NCBI GenBank assembly: GCA_022803075.1
Contig: JAFFTF010000002.1
Location: forward strand, 522,507-586,506
Source of the DNA: Micrococcales bacterium 31B
GTDB taxonomy: Bacteria > Actinomycetota > Actinomycetes > Actinomycetales > Dermabacteraceae
DNA length: 64,000 bases
Direction: 5' to 3'
The translations under genes and the position numbers were made by a program. A model generated the notes under the pieces. The model saw nothing but the letters and a program-made list of their open reading frames with translations. It made no database searches and had not been told where the DNA came from. Shown one piece after another: positions 17,814 to 52,050 of this stretch (within the stretch, counting starts at the first letter, position 1; each line of letters opens with the position of its first letter).

Positions 17814-18943
17814 TGCGCTGCGACTACTTCGAGGCGGGCGCGTGTCGCTCGTGTACCCACCTGCGCACCCCGTATGCCGCGCAGCTGGACGCCAAGGTGG
17901 CCCGCACCCGCGCCGCGCTCGCGGGGCTGCCCGGAGCCGAGTTGGTCACGTGGCTCGACCCCGTGCGCAGCGCCGAATCCGGGTTTCGTAACCGCGCCAA
18001 GATGGTGGTGGGCGGCACGCGGGGGCGCGTGAAACTCGGGGTGCTCGACGACGCGCGGCGCGTTCAAGACCTCGTGGACTGCTCGCTGCACTCCCCCGGC
18101 ATTCACGCGGCGCTGCCGGTGATCGCCGAGTATCTTTCGTGGGCCGGGTTCGAGCCCTACGACATTGCGGCGCGACGCGGCGAGGTGAAGTACGCGCACG
18201 TCACCGAGTCGCCGAGCGGCGAACTCATGCTGCGCTTCGTGCTGCGCAGCCGGGCCGTGCTCGACGACCTGCGGCACGATGTGCCCGCCCTGCGCCGCGA
18301 GATACCGGGACTGCGCGTCGTGACCGCGAACCTGCTGCCCGAGCCGAAGGCCGTGCTTGAGGGGCATGTCGAGATCGTGCTCACCGAGGCCGATACCCTG
18401 CCGATGGCGTTCGACGGGGTGACCCTGCACCTGCGGCCCCAGAGTTTCTTTCAGACCAATACCGAGGTGGCGCACGAGCTGTACGGGCAGGCGAGCGCGT
18501 GGGTGCGGCGCCTGCGGCCGCGCAGCGCGTGGGACCTTTACTGCGGGGTCGGCGGCTTCGCCCTGCATGCTGCGCTCGCCGGGGTGGGCGAGATGCACGG
18601 GGTGGAGGTAAGCGCCGAGGCCATCGCGAGCGCGCGCCTGAGCGCCGAGCAGGCCGGCTTCGCGGCGACGTTCACGGCCGCCGACGCCACCGAGTGGGCG
18701 AGTGGGCGCGAGGCGCCCGAGCTGGTGATCGTGAACCCGCCCCGGCGCGGCATTGGCCCGCTGGCCGCATTCTTGGCCGGTTCGGACGCGCGCTGGGTAC
18801 TGTACTCGAGCTGCAATCCGACGTCGCTGGCCCGGGATCTCGCGGTGATGTCGGAGCGCTTTGCGGTGCGCGAGGCGCGGCTGCTCGACATGTTCCCCCA
18901 CACCGACCACGCCGAGGTGATGACACTGCTGGAGCGGCGTTAG
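17813..18943 (+). CDS. rlmC: 23S rRNA (uracil-747-C5)-methyltransferase RlmC
   Basis: A 376-residue SAM-dependent RNA methyltransferase of the RlmC/RlmD/TrmA family. The N-terminus MRCDYFEAGACRSCTHL has the cysteine cluster that holds the 4Fe-4S centre, closely paralleling Escherichia coli RumB/RlmC, as do GFRNRAKMVVGG and LRPQSFFQTN. The SAM-binding motif is WDLYCGVGGFALH; the catalytic cysteine lies in LYSSCNPTSLARDL and the general base in the C-terminal FPHTDHAEVMTLL. No TRAM domain is present, as expected for RlmC. The ATG at 17813 overlaps the preceding stop codon. Confidence 0.93.
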   Translation: MRCDYFEAGACRSCTHLRTPYAAQLDAKVARTRAALAGLPGAELVTWLDPVRSAESGFRNRAKMVVGGTRGRVKLGVLDDARRVQDLVDCSLHSPGIHAALPVIAEYLSWAGFEPYDIAARRGEVKYAHVTESPSGELMLRFVLRSRAVLDDLRHDVPALRREIPGLRVVTANLLPEPKAVLEGHVEIVLTEADTLPMAFDGVTLHLRPQSFFQTNTEVAHELYGQASAWVRRLRPRSAWDLYCGVGGFALHAALAGVGEMHGVEVSAEAIASARLSAEQAGFAATFTAADATEWASGREAPELVIVNPPRRGIGPLAAFLAGSDARWVLYSSCNPTSLARDLAVMSERFAVREARLLDMFPHTDHAEVMTLLERR

Positions 18944-19100
18944 GCGGGTCTTGCGGCTTCGCCGGATTACGCGACCCACCACGACGTGCGATAGGTACAT
19001 GTGGTAACCGTTTTCACATCCCAGCGTTTCAGCAGTTGCTCATTTTATGCAAAAGTTTAAAAGGTGACGCGCGGCACGTCGAGGTGCTACTTTCAATAAG

Positions 19101-19172
19101 TTCGATCGAGCACCCGTTCGATCGAGCACCCGTTCGATCGAGCACCCGTTCGATCGAGCACCCGTTCGATCG
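19101..19172. repeat. 16-bp tandem repeat, four copies plus a half
   Basis: TTCGATCGAGCACCCG is repeated exactly four times (19101-19164) and followed by TTCGATCG. Each unit contains the 8-bp palindrome TCGATCGA. The array ends 28 bases before the start of the secreted-protein gene at 19200, so it occupies the promoter or leader region. Possible roles are a cooperative protein-binding array or a phase-variable spacer; contraction would move any upstream promoter element by 16 bases. The surrounding 18944-19200 gap is AT-richer than the flanks and otherwise empty. Confidence 0.9.
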
Positions 19173-19199
19173 TTTCCGTCGTATGACAGGACTCCGATT

Positions 19200-19619
19200 G
19201 TGAAAATCACCAAACAAAAGATCATCGCGAGCCTCGTGTTCGCAGCATCCTTCGGCGCCGTAGGCGCTTTGGCAGCCAACGCTCAAAGCTTGCCCAACGA
19301 GACGTGGTCCAACATCAACCCCGGTTCCATCTCGGCGCGTTCGTGGAGCTCGCCATCCTCCGGTGTTTCACGCACCAACTTTGTCACGTGCGGCCTCAAC
19401 AGCGGTGCCCAAGTCAGCATCCCGAATCCCACCTGGATCGTTCGGCATGCGGGAGCGTTTGGACTGACGGCTTACGTTGGCGAAAAATCGGCCCTCTGCA
19501 GTTTGCGAAGCGCCTCGTACATTGACTGGGGCATCGGCGCAGGTCAAGCAGGCAATCAGCTCACGCTTGCAAGGTCGGTGGGCACATTGAAGACCACGTG
19601 GAACGTGGCCGACCGGTAA
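19200..19619 (+). CDS. Small secreted protein of unknown family
   Basis: A 139-residue precursor starting with GTG, with AGGA eight bases upstream. It has a clear signal peptide: KITKQKK-like basic start, hydrophobic core IIASLVFAASFGAVGAL, and a probable cleavage after AANA. The mature part of about 110 residues is Ser/Gly/Trp-rich and has two cysteines (FVTCGL and ALCSL), so one disulfide is possible. I do not recognise the family; it is not lactococcin-972-like as far as I can see. Its TAA overlaps the next start codon by one base, placing it first in a four-gene unit with membrane proteins and an ABC ATPase. A bacteriocin-like or signalling protein is one idea without direct support. Confidence 0.7.
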   Translation: MKITKQKIIASLVFAASFGAVGALAANAQSLPNETWSNINPGSISARSWSSPSSGVSRTNFVTCGLNSGAQVSIPNPTWIVRHAGAFGLTAYVGEKSALCSLRSASYIDWGIGAGQAGNQLTLARSVGTLKTTWNVADR

Positions 19620-20953
19620 TGACTCGGCAAAATGCACGGCAGGGGTGGCGCCGATGGGCACTGCCCCTGCTCTATCTTGGTCTCGGAGTTTTGGCCTTTC
19701 TCGCCACAACTCTGCCGACCTATGGCCTGTTGCGACCCACGGACCAATATCAATTAACAGCCAGGCTCTACGCATCACCACAACTATGGCTGGCGACCCT
19801 GGGCGGTTGCAGCGCATGGCACATAGCGACAATGCGAAGTCGACACGCGTTCCGCCGAGCCGTGGCAAGGTCTCCTCTCACGGTGGTGATTCGCAGCCTG
19901 GCCATGCCCGCAGTGGTCACCACATTGAGTTTGGTGATTGGTGTGGCCGCGACCATGGCCTACTTCGGAATTTATCGCCTGGGGGATTTTTACATATTAG
20001 TGGCCATCTGGGCACTGGGAATTTCTGTGAGCCTTTTAGGCGCGTCTGTGGGAATGTTTTTGCCGCGCTTACTGTCATTGCCAGTTGCCCTCGCGGCAAT
20101 ATTCACGATTGCTTATGTTCCCATGACTATGAAGGAGTCGTGGGTACGATCACTCTTGGGAGGTGGCATAGGGCCCTCAAACCTTTATCAATTGAGCACA
20201 CAAACACTCATCGCAACTCTTGTAACTTCGTTAAGTTTCATGGTCTGGTCCGCGTGCATGATAGCGACGGGGCTACCGAATGCACACAAACGCTGGAGTA
20301 GGTCCCTGCTGACGCTTTGTCTTGTGGTGTGTATTTCATGGGCGGCACACTCAGTTCGAAATCTCGGTTTCATCCCCCTTGTCGGGCGTGACATCGACAC
20401 GGTCTGCAGCGACAACGTGCCGCAGTGGTGTGTGGCGGCGTGGAACTCCGACGAACTCTCCGCGTTTGTGGCCCTCAACCCTAAGATTCACGAGATCGAG
20501 CAGCGCACGGGGGCGAGGTTTCCCGCGCGCCTCAGCCAGGAGGCACCGCCGGGCCCCGCCCTGAGCACCAATGTCGACGCGCTGAGCCCACTACCCAGCA
20601 TCAAGCTCGACGACGGCACCAAAGACGTCTACCGCGCCGTGGAGTTGGGCCTCTCTACCACGGTAAACCCCTGCCAACAGGTACCTCCCTTTATGAACCT
20701 AACGGTCGCGGTCTATGCCTCTGAATGGTGGAGCAGCCAACTGCAGGGAACGCCGCTTTATGGCAATGGCGCACACGACCTCGAAACGGATGTTCCGGCG
20801 CAGACCATTCGCGCCATGACGGAACGCGAACAAGGAGCCTGGGTCAACAGCGTCTTCGAAGCACCCCGCACCTGCACCACCCCTCTCACGCTGCCCGGCC
20901 TCGACAGCGTCGGCAACCCCTTACCGCCCACCACACCGAAAGCCACGCCATGA
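19619..20953 (+). CDS. Polytopic membrane protein with extracytoplasmic Cys domain
   Basis: A 444-residue protein. About six hydrophobic segments fill residues 15-250 (for example ALPLLYLGLGVLAFLATTL, AVVTTLSLVIGVAATMAYFG and LVAIWALGISVSLLGASVG). The last 190 residues are soluble, begin after a final membrane segment and contain paired cysteines (TVCSDNVPQWC, then NPCQQV and RTCTT), suggesting an outside, disulfide-bonded domain. It resembles an ABC-2-type permease with a C-terminal extension, but I cannot confirm a family. It is coupled to the gene before (TAATG) and after (ATGA overlap). The coding sequence to about 20.3 kb is markedly AT-richer than neighbouring genes, a sign of recent acquisition. 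Confidence 0.68.
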   Translation: MTRQNARQGWRRWALPLLYLGLGVLAFLATTLPTYGLLRPTDQYQLTARLYASPQLWLATLGGCSAWHIATMRSRHAFRRAVARSPLTVVIRSLAMPAVVTTLSLVIGVAATMAYFGIYRLGDFYILVAIWALGISVSLLGASVGMFLPRLLSLPVALAAIFTIAYVPMTMKESWVRSLLGGGIGPSNLYQLSTQTLIATLVTSLSFMVWSACMIATGLPNAHKRWSRSLLTLCLVVCISWAAHSVRNLGFIPLVGRDIDTVCSDNVPQWCVAAWNSDELSAFVALNPKIHEIEQRTGARFPARLSQEAPPGPALSTNVDALSPLPSIKLDDGTKDVYRAVELGLSTTVNPCQQVPPFMNLTVAVYASEWWSSQLQGTPLYGNGAHDLETDVPAQTIRAMTEREQGAWVNSVFEAPRTCTTPLTLPGLDSVGNPLPPTTPKATP

Positions 20954-21675
20954 TCTCCATAACGGCGTTACGCAAGGGCTACCGCCGCGTGCCCCTCTTC
21001 ATCGACTTCACCTGGGAACTCCCCCCGGGCCGCACCGTGCTCCTCGGCCCCAACGGGGCCGGCAAATCCACCCTCATGCACTGCATCGCGGGCATCGAAT
21101 ACCCCCAACGCGGAGAAATCCTCATCGACGGCGTTCACATGCGCCGCCGCAAGGCCTACTTTTCGCGGCTCGGCTGGATGCCACAAAACATCAGCGCCCT
21201 ACCCGGGGCAACCTGCCTCAACCAGGTTGCCTACGCGGGCTGGCTGAAGGGCATGAGCAACCGCGAGGCACGCAACCAAGCCGAGATCCAGCTCGAACGG
21301 GTCGGCCTGGCGTCCAAAAGTACCTTCGCCGCCGACAACCTATCGGGCGGCCAACTGCGACGCCTCGGGCTGGCCGAAGCGCTCATCGGCGACCCCAAGG
21401 TGCTCGTGCTCGACGAACCCTCGGTGGGGTTAGACCCCGGCCAGCGCGAAACGTTCAGAAACGTCATACTCGAAACGGCCAACGTGGACTGCCTCATCTC
21501 CACCCACCAGGTAGACGACATCGACGCACTGTTCGACAACGTGGTGGTGCTCGACGGCGGCGAGATCCAGTACCAGGGCAGCGTGCAGGAGTTTCTCGGG
21601 AGCGCACCACCTGGCCTCGACACGCTGCGCGCCGCCGAACACGCCTACCGACAGCTCGTGCGCCGTGAAGCCTAA
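20950..21675 (+). CDS. ABC transporter ATP-binding protein
   Basis: A 241-residue ATPase subunit. Walker A is GPNGAGKST (residues 33-41), the Q-loop is around GWMPQNISAL, the signature is LSGGQLRRLGLAEAL, Walker B is VLVLDEPSVGLD and the H-loop is CLISTHQVDD. All key residues are intact. The ATG at 20950 overlaps the previous TGA by four bases and is preferred over the longer open frame, whose extra N-terminus only mirrors the upstream gene. It presumably energises the membrane proteins encoded on each side. The overall form matches ABC-2 exporters of the CcmA/antibiotic-export type. Confidence 0.9.
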   Translation: MISITALRKGYRRVPLFIDFTWELPPGRTVLLGPNGAGKSTLMHCIAGIEYPQRGEILIDGVHMRRRKAYFSRLGWMPQNISALPGATCLNQVAYAGWLKGMSNREARNQAEIQLERVGLASKSTFAADNLSGGQLRRLGLAEALIGDPKVLVLDEPSVGLDPGQRETFRNVILETANVDCLISTHQVDDIDALFDNVVVLDGGEIQYQGSVQEFLGSAPPGLDTLRAAEHAYRQLVRREA

Positions 21676-22291
21676 ACCGCAAGGAACCTCGGCTTCACAG
21701 TGGTGGTTGGTGCGGCGCACCGCCTGGTACCTCCCCGCGATCGTGGTTTTCCTCGCGCTCGGCCTCGCCCTGACCGAACGTACCGTGGCCGTCACGCGGA
21801 TACTCGGTGAAGGCGAAAACATCGTGGGCTACAGCCAATTTTGTATCGCCCCGGCCGCCACCCTGCTCTACGCCTGGGTCATCCAGGGCAACGCCCGCCG
21901 CGAGCGATCCTCCGCGGGCCGGGCCCAGACCATGGCCCTCACCTGCTGGCTCGCGGCCACACTGGCAGGTGGAGCCATACCCCTCGGCATCGGGTACCTG
22001 GCCGACTCGCCACTCCTGCGAGTCGCCGGGCTCAGTTACGTAGGCCTCACCGGGCTCGCCGGCCTCGCGGGATACCTCACGCTCCCCCACGTGGGCACAG
22101 CTATGCCGATTCTCTACCTCGCGATGAGCTTCATTTTTGTTGTGCAGGCTGGAGGACCACTTGAGATTTTTTGGCCCATCACCCTCGACGTGGACTGGAC
22201 GTGGGCATGGACCGCCGTCGCCGCGTGGCTCGCGGGCACGTGGTGCGTCGCCAAGAGGCCGACCCGGCTTCGCTGCAGGGTGGCACCGTGA
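21665..22291 (+). CDS. Membrane protein of the ABC cluster
   Basis: A 208-residue, GTG-started protein with about six hydrophobic segments (YLPAIVVFLALGLAL, APAATLLYAWVIQG, ALTCWLAATLAGGAIPLGIG, GLSYVGLTGLAGLAGYLTL, PILYLAMSFIFVVQ and TWAWTAVAAWLAGTW). It overlaps the ATPase gene by 11 bases and ends the unit. I do not recognise a family; a second permease-like subunit or an immunity/accessory protein for the secreted product are the likely options from context. The start is fixed by position inside the ATPase 3' end; no strong ribosome site is needed for coupled translation. Confidence 0.65.
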   Translation: MKPKPQGTSASQWWLVRRTAWYLPAIVVFLALGLALTERTVAVTRILGEGENIVGYSQFCIAPAATLLYAWVIQGNARRERSSAGRAQTMALTCWLAATLAGGAIPLGIGYLADSPLLRVAGLSYVGLTGLAGLAGYLTLPHVGTAMPILYLAMSFIFVVQAGGPLEIFWPITLDVDWTWAWTAVAAWLAGTWCVAKRPTRLRCRVAP

Positions 22292-48615: not shown

Positions 48616-51159
48616 TCAGGGCGCCGTGGCGGTCACTCGCCAGGTCGCCGTAGCGTCCGCCGCGAATCGATACCCCACCTCGGGAACCGCCGTGACCGTC
48701 ACCGCGCCGATATTGCGATGGAACCCAGGGCTCAGCAGGGTGCCGTTCGCGTAATAGGTGACTCCCGGGGCGTCCGCGATCTCAAACCCGTCGCGGCCCT
48801 TGCCGGGCCGGTCCACGACGCGCGGCGCGGTGGGCACGGTGAGCCTCGTGAACACAGGCACGTCGGCGTAGTCGATGTCGGAGGCGAGTCGATACTCGGT
48901 ATAACTGGGCTGGTTGTACGCCGTGTTTTGCCGCGCCACCTCGGCCCGGTACTGCGGATCGTGCATGAGGGTCGTGAGTTTGCGGTCGGTCACCTCGGTC
49001 GAGAAGTACACGCGTATGGCGCTGCTGTCAGCGGTGCGCACGAGCAGCTCTTCGCGCCAGTCACCGAACACGTCGGCCACGAGGCCAGCATTACCCTTGG
49101 TGCCGTTGTTCGAGCGCGTGCCCGGTGCCGTAAAGACCACAGTGTTGTCGCCGTCGAGCAGGCTCACATCTTGGTCTCCGCTGCCGCTGACCAACTGCGT
49201 GGTCATGTCGGCGGCCCAGTGAATGGATTGATTGGTGCCCGCGCCCTCGGCCGGGGTGCCGGAGCCGGGGGGCATCGACGCCCAATACTCGAGTCCGGGC
49301 AGGGCAGGGTCGATGTCGCCTACCATGCCGCGGCCCGTATCTCTGCCCGAGTATGTGCCCGCCAGTACTTCGCCACTTGCGGCGTCGCGCAGCGCCCATC
49401 CGTAGGGGGCATTCGCGGCGCCCTCGTGCACCGTGAAGATTTCGAGCCCGGGATTACCGGGCACAATGTCGGTGACGTGCATGGCATCACCGTGGCCGAG
49501 GCGAGCGCTAGCTCCTGGATCGGCGCTGCCCTCGGGCAGGGTGTCGAAGGAGCTGTAGAGCAGGCTGCCATCGTCGTCGATCGTCGCCGAGCCGTACACG
49601 ACCTCCTGCTTGCCGTCTCCGTCCACGTCGGCGGCCGAAAGCGAGTGGAATCCCTGCGTGGTCAGCGTCGCGAATTCGGGATCAGTGCCATCGCGCCCGT
49701 GGGGTGAGTCGTTGAAGGGGTTGCTGAGCGGTACGTGACCGCTGTCGACGAACCAGCGCTGGGTCAGGTGCGTGCCGTCCCAGTCGTAGGTTCCGATGGT
49801 TGAGCGGGTGTAGTAGCCGCGGGCGAACACGGCCGAGGCGTGCTGGCCATCGAGGTAGGCAACTCCGGAGAGAAAGCGGTCGTTGCGGTTACCTGGCTCA
49901 ATGCGGGGCATGGCATAGTCGCCCCACAGCAGGCCATCGTCCCCCCGCGCCGGCGCGAAGGGCTGCGTTGCAAGTTCGGAGCCCGTCGCGCCGTCGAACA
50001 CCGTGAGGTATTCGGGCCCCTCCTGCACGAACCCCTCGAAATCGCGCAACGTATTGTTCGCGCTGCGCGAGGGCGCGTAAACGTCCATGAAGTAGTCGAC
50101 CAGCTCGCGCGCGGAGGAGTCGCTGAGCGGATACCCGTGCGTTACCGGAACGCCCAGCGCCTGCTCCACAGTGGCGGGCCATTGCCCCGAGGCCACCTCG
50201 GGCCGCTCGCTCCACCCAGCGAACACGGTCACCAGATGCTCGTAGTAGTCGGCGCTTGACCAGCGGTAGTCGTCCGCAGCGGTGACGCCGGCGGCGATAT
50301 CTGCCGCGGGCAGCGTGATGCCCGTGGTGACCCCCGCCGCGATGGTTTGGGTGCCGGGAGCGGTCTTCAGCATGATCTCCGACCTGCCATCTCCGTCGAA
50401 GTCGTACACCATGAACTGCGTGTAGTGCGCCCCCGAGCGGATGTTCACCCCGAGGTCAATGCGGTAGAGCAGGGTGCCATCGGTTTGGTACGCGTCGATG
50501 TAGGTGTTGCCGGTGTAGCCCTTTTGAGAGTTGTCCTTGGCGTTGGAGGGGTACCACTTCACCAGGTATTCATAGTCCCCGTCGCCGTCGAGGTCACCCA
50601 CCGACAGGTCGTTGGCCGAGTAATCGTAGGCCTCGCCTGCCGGGGTCACGCCAGGTGCGGGCTTCTGCAGGGGAATACTCACAAAGTTATCCGCCTGCGG
50701 GGTGGCGACCGCGCTGCGGGCGCCTTCGATTCCGTAGCGCACGGGGGCCACCTGGTAGCGCGCCCCGGGGGTGGCGTCGAGGTAGTTGGTGCTGTCGGTG
50801 ACGGTGGCTATGCGGCGGCCGTCGCGGTAAACCGCGAAGTCGACGCCGAGCATGCCCGTGTCGCCCGCTCCGAATGTCTCTTCGGCGAGCAGGCGCCAGC
50901 TCAGGTAGACCCCGTCGCCGGAGCGGGCCGCGACCAGCCCTCGGTCCAGCGCCTCGAGTTGGGGCGCTGCCGGGTTGGCTGCGTTCACGGGGTTCAGGGC
51001 GTATGCGCTGTTCGGGGGGTTAAGTGCGGACGCCGCGGTGGTCGCGTGGGCCGGGGCGGGCACCGCTGAAAGGGTGGCCGCGAACAGGGTCACGGTCGCG
51101 GCCGCGCCGAGCGCGGCACGCAGGGATCGCGGGTGAACAGGGTGTGGTCGTCTAGTCAT
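48616..51159 (-). CDS. Secreted rhamnogalacturonan lyase (PL11 type)
   Basis: An 847-residue secreted polysaccharide lyase. A signal peptide (hydrophobic ALGAAATVTLFAATLSAV, cleavage near AHA) is followed by a domain of family PL11 beta-propeller type, with calcium-binding acidic loops VGDLDGDGDYEYL, VYDFDGDGRSEIM and AADVDGDGKQEVVYG, and the typical RIDLGVNIRSGAHYTQFMVY and GDWREELLVRTAD. It would cleave the rhamnose-galacturonate backbone of pectin outside the cell. The C-terminus ends with a short beta-rich domain (FEIADAPGVTYYANGTLL). A LacI-type palindrome and 10-bp repeats lie upstream. It supplies the galacturonate/rhamnose route, complementing the uronate operon at 5-10 kb. Confidence 0.9.
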   Translation of the reverse strand: MTRRPHPVHPRSLRAALGAAATVTLFAATLSAVPAPAHATTAASALNPPNSAYALNPVNAANPAAPQLEALDRGLVAARSGDGVYLSWRLLAEETFGAGDTGMLGVDFAVYRDGRRIATVTDSTNYLDATPGARYQVAPVRYGIEGARSAVATPQADNFVSIPLQKPAPGVTPAGEAYDYSANDLSVGDLDGDGDYEYLVKWYPSNAKDNSQKGYTGNTYIDAYQTDGTLLYRIDLGVNIRSGAHYTQFMVYDFDGDGRSEIMLKTAPGTQTIAAGVTTGITLPAADIAAGVTAADDYRWSSADYYEHLVTVFAGWSERPEVASGQWPATVEQALGVPVTHGYPLSDSSARELVDYFMDVYAPSRSANNTLRDFEGFVQEGPEYLTVFDGATGSELATQPFAPARGDDGLLWGDYAMPRIEPGNRNDRFLSGVAYLDGQHASAVFARGYYTRSTIGTYDWDGTHLTQRWFVDSGHVPLSNPFNDSPHGRDGTDPEFATLTTQGFHSLSAADVDGDGKQEVVYGSATIDDDGSLLYSSFDTLPEGSADPGASARLGHGDAMHVTDIVPGNPGLEIFTVHEGAANAPYGWALRDAASGEVLAGTYSGRDTGRGMVGDIDPALPGLEYWASMPPGSGTPAEGAGTNQSIHWAADMTTQLVSGSGDQDVSLLDGDNTVVFTAPGTRSNNGTKGNAGLVADVFGDWREELLVRTADSSAIRVYFSTEVTDRKLTTLMHDPQYRAEVARQNTAYNQPSYTEYRLASDIDYADVPVFTRLTVPTAPRVVDRPGKGRDGFEIADAPGVTYYANGTLLSPGFHRNIGAVTVTAVPEVGYRFAADATATWRVTATAP

Positions 51160-51250: not shown

Positions 51251-51320
51251 TCCTGACGGGCACTGAATGGCACTGACGGGCACTGAATGGCACTGAATGG
51301 CACTGACGGGCACAGACGGG
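51251..51320. repeat. 10-bp tandem repeat, seven units
   Basis: Seven consecutive 10-base units, variants of CACTGAATGG and CACTGACGGG, run from 51251 to 51320; an eighth begins CACAGGC. The units differ at two positions and alternate. The period equals about one helical turn, so bound proteins would line up on one face. The array lies in the leader or promoter region of the lyase gene, 92-161 bases from its start codon. Confidence 0.85.
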
Positions 51321-51343
51321 CACAGGCAGCCGCAGAATCGCGC

Positions 51344-51359: not shown

Positions 51360-51464
51360 GTCCAGTGTACTCGCACCATCCTTGAAACGATGCAATATCG
51401 GCAAGCCGGCCACCCGCGCGTCCCCAACGCCGCAGCCTCGCATCAGCCCAACCTCAGCCACCGC

Positions 51465-51512
51465 CCCACCCATTCGCCGCCCCACCCATTCGCCGCCCCA
51501 CCCATTCGCCGC
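51465..51512. repeat. 16-bp tandem repeat, three exact copies
   Basis: CCCACCCATTCGCCGC is repeated three times without change (51465-51512). It lies 64 bases upstream of the SRPBCC gene and next to the 10-bp array, within the 418-base gap 51160-51576, which holds two arrays and one operator but no gene. Confidence 0.85.
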
Positions 51513-51576
51513 ACAGGCCTGCCACCCGCACCGGAACTCGCCGACGGCCACCGCGATGACACCTATACTGTGTCCC

Positions 51577-52050
51577 ATGAGTTCATACGAGGTAGTCCGA
51601 AGCCGCACGATCCCCGCGAGCGCCGAGGCGGCCTTCGAGGCCGTCAACGCGTTCAAGAACTGGGACCACTGGTCGCCGTGGGAGGCCGTCGACCCCAGCG
51701 TGAGCAAGCGCTACGAGGGCCCCGAGTCGGGCGCGGGGTCGCAGATCCACTGGGAGGGCAAGAAGGCGGGCGCCGCCCACCTCGAAATGCTTAGCAGCAC
51801 GCCACCGAGCGAGGAGTCGGCGGGCTCCATCGAGATTCGACTGCACTATCTGCGACCGTTTGAGAGCACGAATCTGAATCGATTCACCTTCGAGTCCACT
51901 CCCACCGGCGCGCTCGTCTCCTGGACCATCACCGGAGACAGCGAGGGCTTCATGACGAAAGCCATGACCAAGACGGGCGTGCTGCAAAAGATCATGGGCA
52001 AAGACATCGAAAAGCGACTTCAGCAACTGGCCGCGCACGTCAGCGCGTAA
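51577..52050 (+). CDS. SRPBCC-family protein
   Basis: A 157-residue START/polyketide-cyclase-like protein. It starts SSYEVVRSRTIPASAEAAFE, has the family's WDHWSPWEAVDPS after the first helix, GALVSWTITGDSEGFM on the central sheet and a long C-terminal helix (MGKDIEKRLQQLAAHV). Such domains bind a hydrophobic ligand in a helix-grip cavity; the ligand is unknown. TATACT (51564-51569) lies seven bases before the ATG and no ribosome site is present, so the transcript is probably leaderless. The next gene, an aldo/keto reductase, follows after 24 bases. Confidence 0.83.
   Translation: MSSYEVVRSRTIPASAEAAFEAVNAFKNWDHWSPWEAVDPSVSKRYEGPESGAGSQIHWEGKKAGAAHLEMLSSTPPSEESAGSIEIRLHYLRPFESTNLNRFTFESTPTGALVSWTITGDSEGFMTKAMTKTGVLQKIMGKDIEKRLQQLAAHVSA

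Follow-up and report, generated by a model that had tools for sequence, protein, structure and literature searches.

The leaders of ompA and aprE carry 5' mRNA-stabilising hairpins, namely a strong stem-loop upstream of the ribosome site. In Micrococcales bacterium 31B we identify two tandem-repeat arrays, each in front of an operon for a small secreted-type protein and an ABC transporter, at which a strong stem-loop is likewise predicted upstream of the ribosome site; unlike in the ompA and aprE leaders, this hairpin would be built by one unit of a perfect tandem repeat pairing with another, in arrays whose transcription is presumed. The same arrays recall operators or iteron-type direct repeats in that a near-palindromic 12-mer is repeated in one orientation close to the start codon, but its spacing differs between the two arrays and no known regulator accompanies them. 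A third point of comparison is provided by hmw1A and hmw2A of Haemophilus influenzae, where 7-bp repeats are present in 9-28 units and their variable copy number correlates with mRNA level (PMC2424069, PMC8262952). Those genes and the present loci both have tandem units of more than 4 bp, placed in the promoter or 5' UTR region of genes for surface or secreted proteins, and in both cases two paralogous loci have an array each; here, in contrast, there are 4.6 and 3.2 long, self-complementary units.

The array at locus 1 and the operon behind it

The window, by which we mean the whole stretch of 64,000 nucleotides that was analysed, contains at 19100-19172 (+ strand; henceforth locus 1) a perfect tandem array of 4.56 copies of GTTCGATCGAGCACCC, in which a 12-base self-complementary core, GTTCGATCGAGC, alternates with a 4-base spacer, ACCC. 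Tandem Repeats Finder returns it with a period of 16, 4.6 copies and 100% match, and it resolves into four exact full units, each containing TCGATCGA, followed by the partial unit GTTCGATCG. Its self-match of 57 bases at lag 16 is the longest exact one of the window at lags of 5-40, with the same statistic reaching 10-12 in ten dinucleotide-shuffled windows. These results confirm the four exact units, and the motif within each, that had been reported in the initial annotation. The array is directly followed by TTTCCGTC; a putative ribosome binding site, AGGA, lies at 19188-19191 (+), and 27 bases, rather than the 28 first reported, separate the end of the array (19172) from a GTG start codon at 19200.

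This GTG opens the gene for a 139-residue protein (19200-19619, +) with a signal-peptide-like N-terminus by eye, which heads an operon whose subsequent genes run on with small overlaps. They code for a 444-residue membrane protein that is ABC-permease-like by eye (19619-20953, +), a 243-residue ABC transporter ATPase (20944-21675, +; PF00005, E 3.1e-28), and a 208-residue membrane protein, also typed by eye (21665-22291, +), with a counterpart in both paralogous operons described below. For the 139-, 444- and 208-residue proteins, neither Pfam nor NCBIfam has a match up to E 0.1. The gene upstream of the array ends at 18943 and matches tRNA (uracil-5-)-methyltransferase (PF05958). An alternative frame at 18499-19203 overlaps the array; because this frame also overlaps the methyltransferase gene in another frame, and because 16 is not a multiple of 3, we rejected the array as a protein-coding repeat. 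It was also rejected as a terminator of the upstream gene: no T run follows it, and no intrinsic terminator was found on the + strand at 18900-19700. A search of the same interval against Rfam up to E 1 returned a single match, on the minus strand, whose 22.4 bits fall short of the gathering score of 83.

Paralogous operons and the array of locus 2

The genome carries two operons paralogous to that of locus 1, and all three are made up of the same four gene types. The closest (locus 2, on C28) encodes a secreted protein 44% identical to that of locus 1, and the third (locus 3, on C23) one that is 36% identical; at locus 3 the large membrane protein occurs twice in a row (L014 7049-9652). Upstream of the locus 3 operon there are TetR-like and cytosine-methyltransferase-like frames, their types assigned by eye, and upstream of the locus 2 operon two overlapping minus-strand frames (L013 10756-12080), of which the second has a helix-turn-helix-like stretch and which by eye may be a toxin-antitoxin-like pair.

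At locus 2 the GTG start is preceded by a second array, of TTCGGTCGAGCACACACGG, with a 19-bp period, 3.2 copies and 100% match by Tandem Repeats Finder. Since the upstream gene at this locus is divergent from the secreted-protein operon, the array cannot be that gene's terminator. The 12-base core GTTCGRTCGAGC is common to both arrays, in tandem and in the same orientation, and they share GTTCGRTCGAGCAC, with differing spacers and periods (16 vs 19 bp). Between the two loci the core is kept at 11 of 12 bases, plus the AC after it, and a single-unit stretch common to both agrees at 13 of 14 bases. The arrays end at -28 (locus 1) and -47 (locus 2) from the start codon. Local alignment of the two leaders scores 48, as against a mean of 18.2 and a maximum of 33 in 300 shuffles, although the repeats inflate this score; once both arrays are masked it falls to 16, against a shuffle mean of 16.4. 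The leaders align in their arrays only, the remainder being unalignable, at chance level. Because the units are identical inside each array and differ in sequence and length between the arrays, each array was probably expanded or homogenised separately. The recent expansion that the initial annotation had read from unit identity is supported in this form, as expansion or homogenisation within each array.

The leader of locus 3 contains no array, and instead has a perfect inverted repeat, GGCCGAGGTG-CT-CACCTCGGCC, at -41 to -20, which is unrelated in sequence to the arrays. No comparable array was found in the leaders of eight distant relatives of the operon (available leader down to 76 bases); a 2.1-copy, 88% stretch in the L038 leader is the coding end of a preceding small gene copy.

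The exact core GTTCGRTCGAGC occurs seven times in the 3,934,240-base genome, four times at locus 1, twice at locus 2, and once (on C26) inside a coding frame that reads by eye as L-aspartate oxidase, with no third place in the genome where it stands in tandem. Allowing up to two mismatches, the 15-base unit is found at 16 places (4 at locus 1, 2 at locus 2 and 10 elsewhere) and its backwards-read control at none. Among 396 genomes of the order a tandem-pair core pattern was recovered from two, namely this genome and G088, and no exact array stretch was found in viral contigs. In G088 (L031, about 1469-1528) there is an intergenic palindrome with the motif TTCGGTCGAGC just before a frame that by eye is lysyl-tRNA-synthetase-like. 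Given that the exact core is nearly confined to the two arrays (6 of 7 occurrences in the genome), we argue that the array serves some function in cis, which in our judgement is likely.

Other sequences, too, form tandem arrays in this genome often enough for array expansion to be unremarkable in itself: 26 arrays with a period of 8-60, at least 90% match and at least 2.5 copies were counted in 521,508 sampled bases, a sample that includes the 64-kb window and the sister loci, and 8 of the 26, counting those of loci 1 and 2, lie mostly outside a crude coding proxy. The window itself has a second perfect 16-bp array of unrelated sequence (CCGCCCCACCCATTCG x3.2; 51461-51512), and no + strand frame of at least 60 residues starts at 51451-52000. 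Nearby, seven 10-bp units (CTGACGGGCA / CTGAATGGCA; 51253-51323) lie about 94 bases upstream of a minus-strand secreted-type frame (49402-51159) and are a candidate for a helically phased operator. In L072 (5851-5944) a 14-bp unit, GCGGCCCGAATCGC, is repeated 6.7 times between two minus-strand frames.

The operon family and its secreted protein

In operons for lactococcin 972-type bacteriocins the gene of a small secreted protein comes first, and those of a large membrane protein and an ABC ATPase come after it. The operons described here present the same order, as read from their frames and from PF00005, which suggests, by analogy of gene order, a bacteriocin-like role that no family model supports. 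They differ from the lactococcin 972-type operons in having an extra membrane protein of 200 residues, in the lack of a bacteriocin family among the NCBIfam and Pfam matches up to E 1 of 11 aligned secreted-protein members, and in a fold that matches generic beta-sandwiches only. The structural model of the secreted-type protein (mean pLDDT 65), for which an earlier model from three sequences (mean pLDDT 45.5) was dropped, is all-beta. Its best match is a CBM22 domain in Foldseek (E 8.5e-4, TM 0.37), and its best VIA-align match has a Z of 8.7 (rmsd 3.8, 101 aligned); no lactococcin 972 structure is among the 50 fold matches listed by each program. A PDB sequence search returned three matches with E values of 1.7-2. 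Two cysteines are invariant across the 11 aligned relatives.

Within 47 genomes of the family the secreted protein was recovered from its own genome only, at three places. A three-row profile of it gave one other, weak match (E 5.2e-4) in 396 genomes of the order and two others, also weak, in 376 genomes of the phylum (E 3.9e-5 with two internal stops, and 4.9e-4), and no relative was found on plasmids up to E 0.01. Counting the own genome, matches to the large membrane protein came from 29 of 374 genomes of the class with a six-sequence profile and, with a four-sequence profile, from 3 of 396 in the order; two contig scans with the membrane protein found no relative. We collected 31 loci (L025-L027, L037-L064) around the large-membrane-protein matches and one weak secreted-protein match, and a partial reading by eye located the small secreted gene in at least eight of them. 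The large membrane protein of one distant relative matches DUF7224. In several of these distant genomes (L026 2548-5517, L037, L042 and L047) a two-cysteine secreted protein stands beside an ABC ATPase and membrane proteins, and in L038 (1-561) and L039 (1-567) an apparent preceding copy of the small secreted gene ends directly before the located one, with a strong hairpin between the two copies. Taken together, the sequences point to a secreted protein/ABC operon family whose secreted protein appears to be without a family name in Pfam or NCBIfam as searched. The literature consulted, mostly titles and abstracts, contained no mention of the array or of the operon family.

Possible leader hairpins, protein binding and slippage

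The reading that we prefer, with a probability of roughly 0.45, takes the array for a cis-regulatory element that lies in the 5' leader of the secreted protein/ABC operon and would act as stacked mRNA hairpins. The array would be transcribed and act as RNA: each core would pair with its neighbour, giving a leader with 12-bp hairpins in a stack. Such a structure would protect the mRNA at its 5' end and determine how much of it is present; tandem duplication would amplify the hairpin, and the number of copies may adjust transcript abundance. On the mRNA strand a core pairs with another core copy over 12 positions, leaving loops of ACCC at locus 1 and ACACACG at locus 2, by way of 10 Watson-Crick and 2 G.U pairs at the former and 8 and 4 at the latter. 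On this strand the departures of the cores from a perfect palindrome are all G.U, and in the comparison of the two loci a core A at one is G at the other and is kept as G.U. In the last partial unit of locus 2, CGACCG replaces CGGTCG and pairs Watson-Crick with the first CGGTCGA. This self-pairing free of mismatches in both arrays, together with the hairpin of its own at locus 3, argues for action as RNA, and the differing periods (16 vs 19 bp) suit RNA stems better than cooperative DNA binding. The best hairpins in the leaders of loci 1, 2 and 3 score 27, 24 and 25; of 200 shuffles each, 0, 1 and 1 do as well, the three leaders being paralogous and hence not independent in these statistics. 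Among 141 further leaders from this genome, 7.1% score at least 24.

Several observations weigh against the stacked hairpins. At locus 1 the predicted antisense fold is no less stable than the sense fold (-40.2 vs -38.7 kcal/mol), and the sense fold is preferred at locus 2 only (-29.9 vs -18.0 kcal/mol for antisense). The eight distant relatives, besides having no comparable array, show a shuffle-rare hairpin in only two leaders (2 and 5 of 200 shuffles, against 18 to 200 of 200 for the other six), which are close to each other and have it at about -48 to -23. The frequency of tandem arrays of other sequence in the genome also counts against them. Moreover, the promoter matches upstream of the two arrays are no better than expected by chance, so that transcription of the array is putative. 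The match at locus 1 is a putative weak promoter (GTGACG-18-TACTTT; 19064-19093, +) from which transcription would start at about the first base of the array, and since 102 of 300 shuffles score as high the location of the start site is only putative; a stricter promoter scan at this locus found none. Upstream of loci 2 and 3, 173 and 7 of 300 shuffles, respectively, are as good as the matches there. Transcription could also start downstream of the array.

The promoter match bears on a further proposal of the initial annotation, that adding or losing a unit, which is not a whole number of helical turns, would rotate upstream elements. This argument needs the array to lie between the promoter and the upstream elements; with a promoter upstream, added units would lengthen the transcript without rotation. 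It is weakened by the best match, weak and of chance quality as it is, lying upstream of the locus 1 array, and by the 19-bp period of locus 2.

A protein operator, as the initial annotation had it, is a close rival: a transcription regulator would bind adjacent copies of the near-palindromic 12-mer GTTCGRTCGAGC and co-control both sister operons. What stands from that annotation is that the array is probably a cis-regulatory repeat cluster, its core having been kept before a sister operon while the rest of the leaders diverged; as to its mode of action, the operator is a serious possibility that we nevertheless hold to be doubtful. Since pairing alone would not require a constant core sequence, the conservation between the leaders of the sequence itself (11 of 12 core bases and the AC after them) favours a sequence-specific binder, as does the near exclusivity of the exact core to loci 1 and 2; the G(T/C)TCGA half sites also face each other at locus 1, as in many operators. 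On the other hand, spacings of 16 and 19 bp put the sites on different faces of the helix, and the core of locus 2 is the worse DNA palindrome, with 8 of 12 positions Watson-Crick. By eye no regulator directly adjoins locus 1 or 2, the helix-turn-helix-like frame (L013 11400-12080) being two frames upstream of locus 2, and locus 3 is without the core sequence although a TetR-like frame, by eye, lies upstream of it.

By analogy with hmw1A, slippage might alter the number of units and hence the amount of secreted protein, making the locus phase-variable or a rheostat. The perfect tandem units and their different length and number in the two leaders (4.6 vs 3.2 copies), which point to independent expansion or homogenisation, are consistent with this, but we consider it unlikely: with so few copies slippage would be expected to be slow, and predicted access to the ribosome site shifts only slightly with unit number, in opposite parity. 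For locus 1 arrays of 0-8 units, AGGA has a predicted opening of 0.30 when the number is odd and 0.27 when it is even, and GTG one of 0.13-0.14 and 0.18-0.24, respectively; at locus 2, with 0-6 units, the values are 0.09-0.18 for AGGA and 0.03-0.06 for GTG. A parity switch, in which CGATCG of the last partial unit pairs with CGATTG at the start codon, was also set aside: the fold does alternate, but the change in opening is too small and has opposite senses. Less likely still is that the arrays reflect neutral slippage tolerated between genes and owe their resemblance to a shared ancestral leader, since, for all the 26 tandem arrays in 521,508 bases and the 8 mostly outside the coding proxy, the core was kept while the leaders otherwise diverged and the proteins fell to 44% identity, and it is in exact tandem nowhere else in the genome.

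Extending the preferred reading, stacked mRNA hairpins, we entertain as an improbable scenario that the leader arrays of the two sister operons might be a heritable rheostat on mRNA level, in which units would be added or removed whole as hairpin arms and the arrays re-amplified independently with different unit lengths, the pairing core being kept. If true, the repeat unit of such an array would itself be a functional RNA stem, one that persisted while the arrays of two paralogous operons re-expanded separately. The 16- and 19-bp units with the same core would then offer a natural pair for deciding whether selection acts on RNA pairing or on DNA binding, in a secreted protein/ABC operon family that is present in part of the sampled actinobacterial class and for which the Pfam and NCBIfam searches gave no name.
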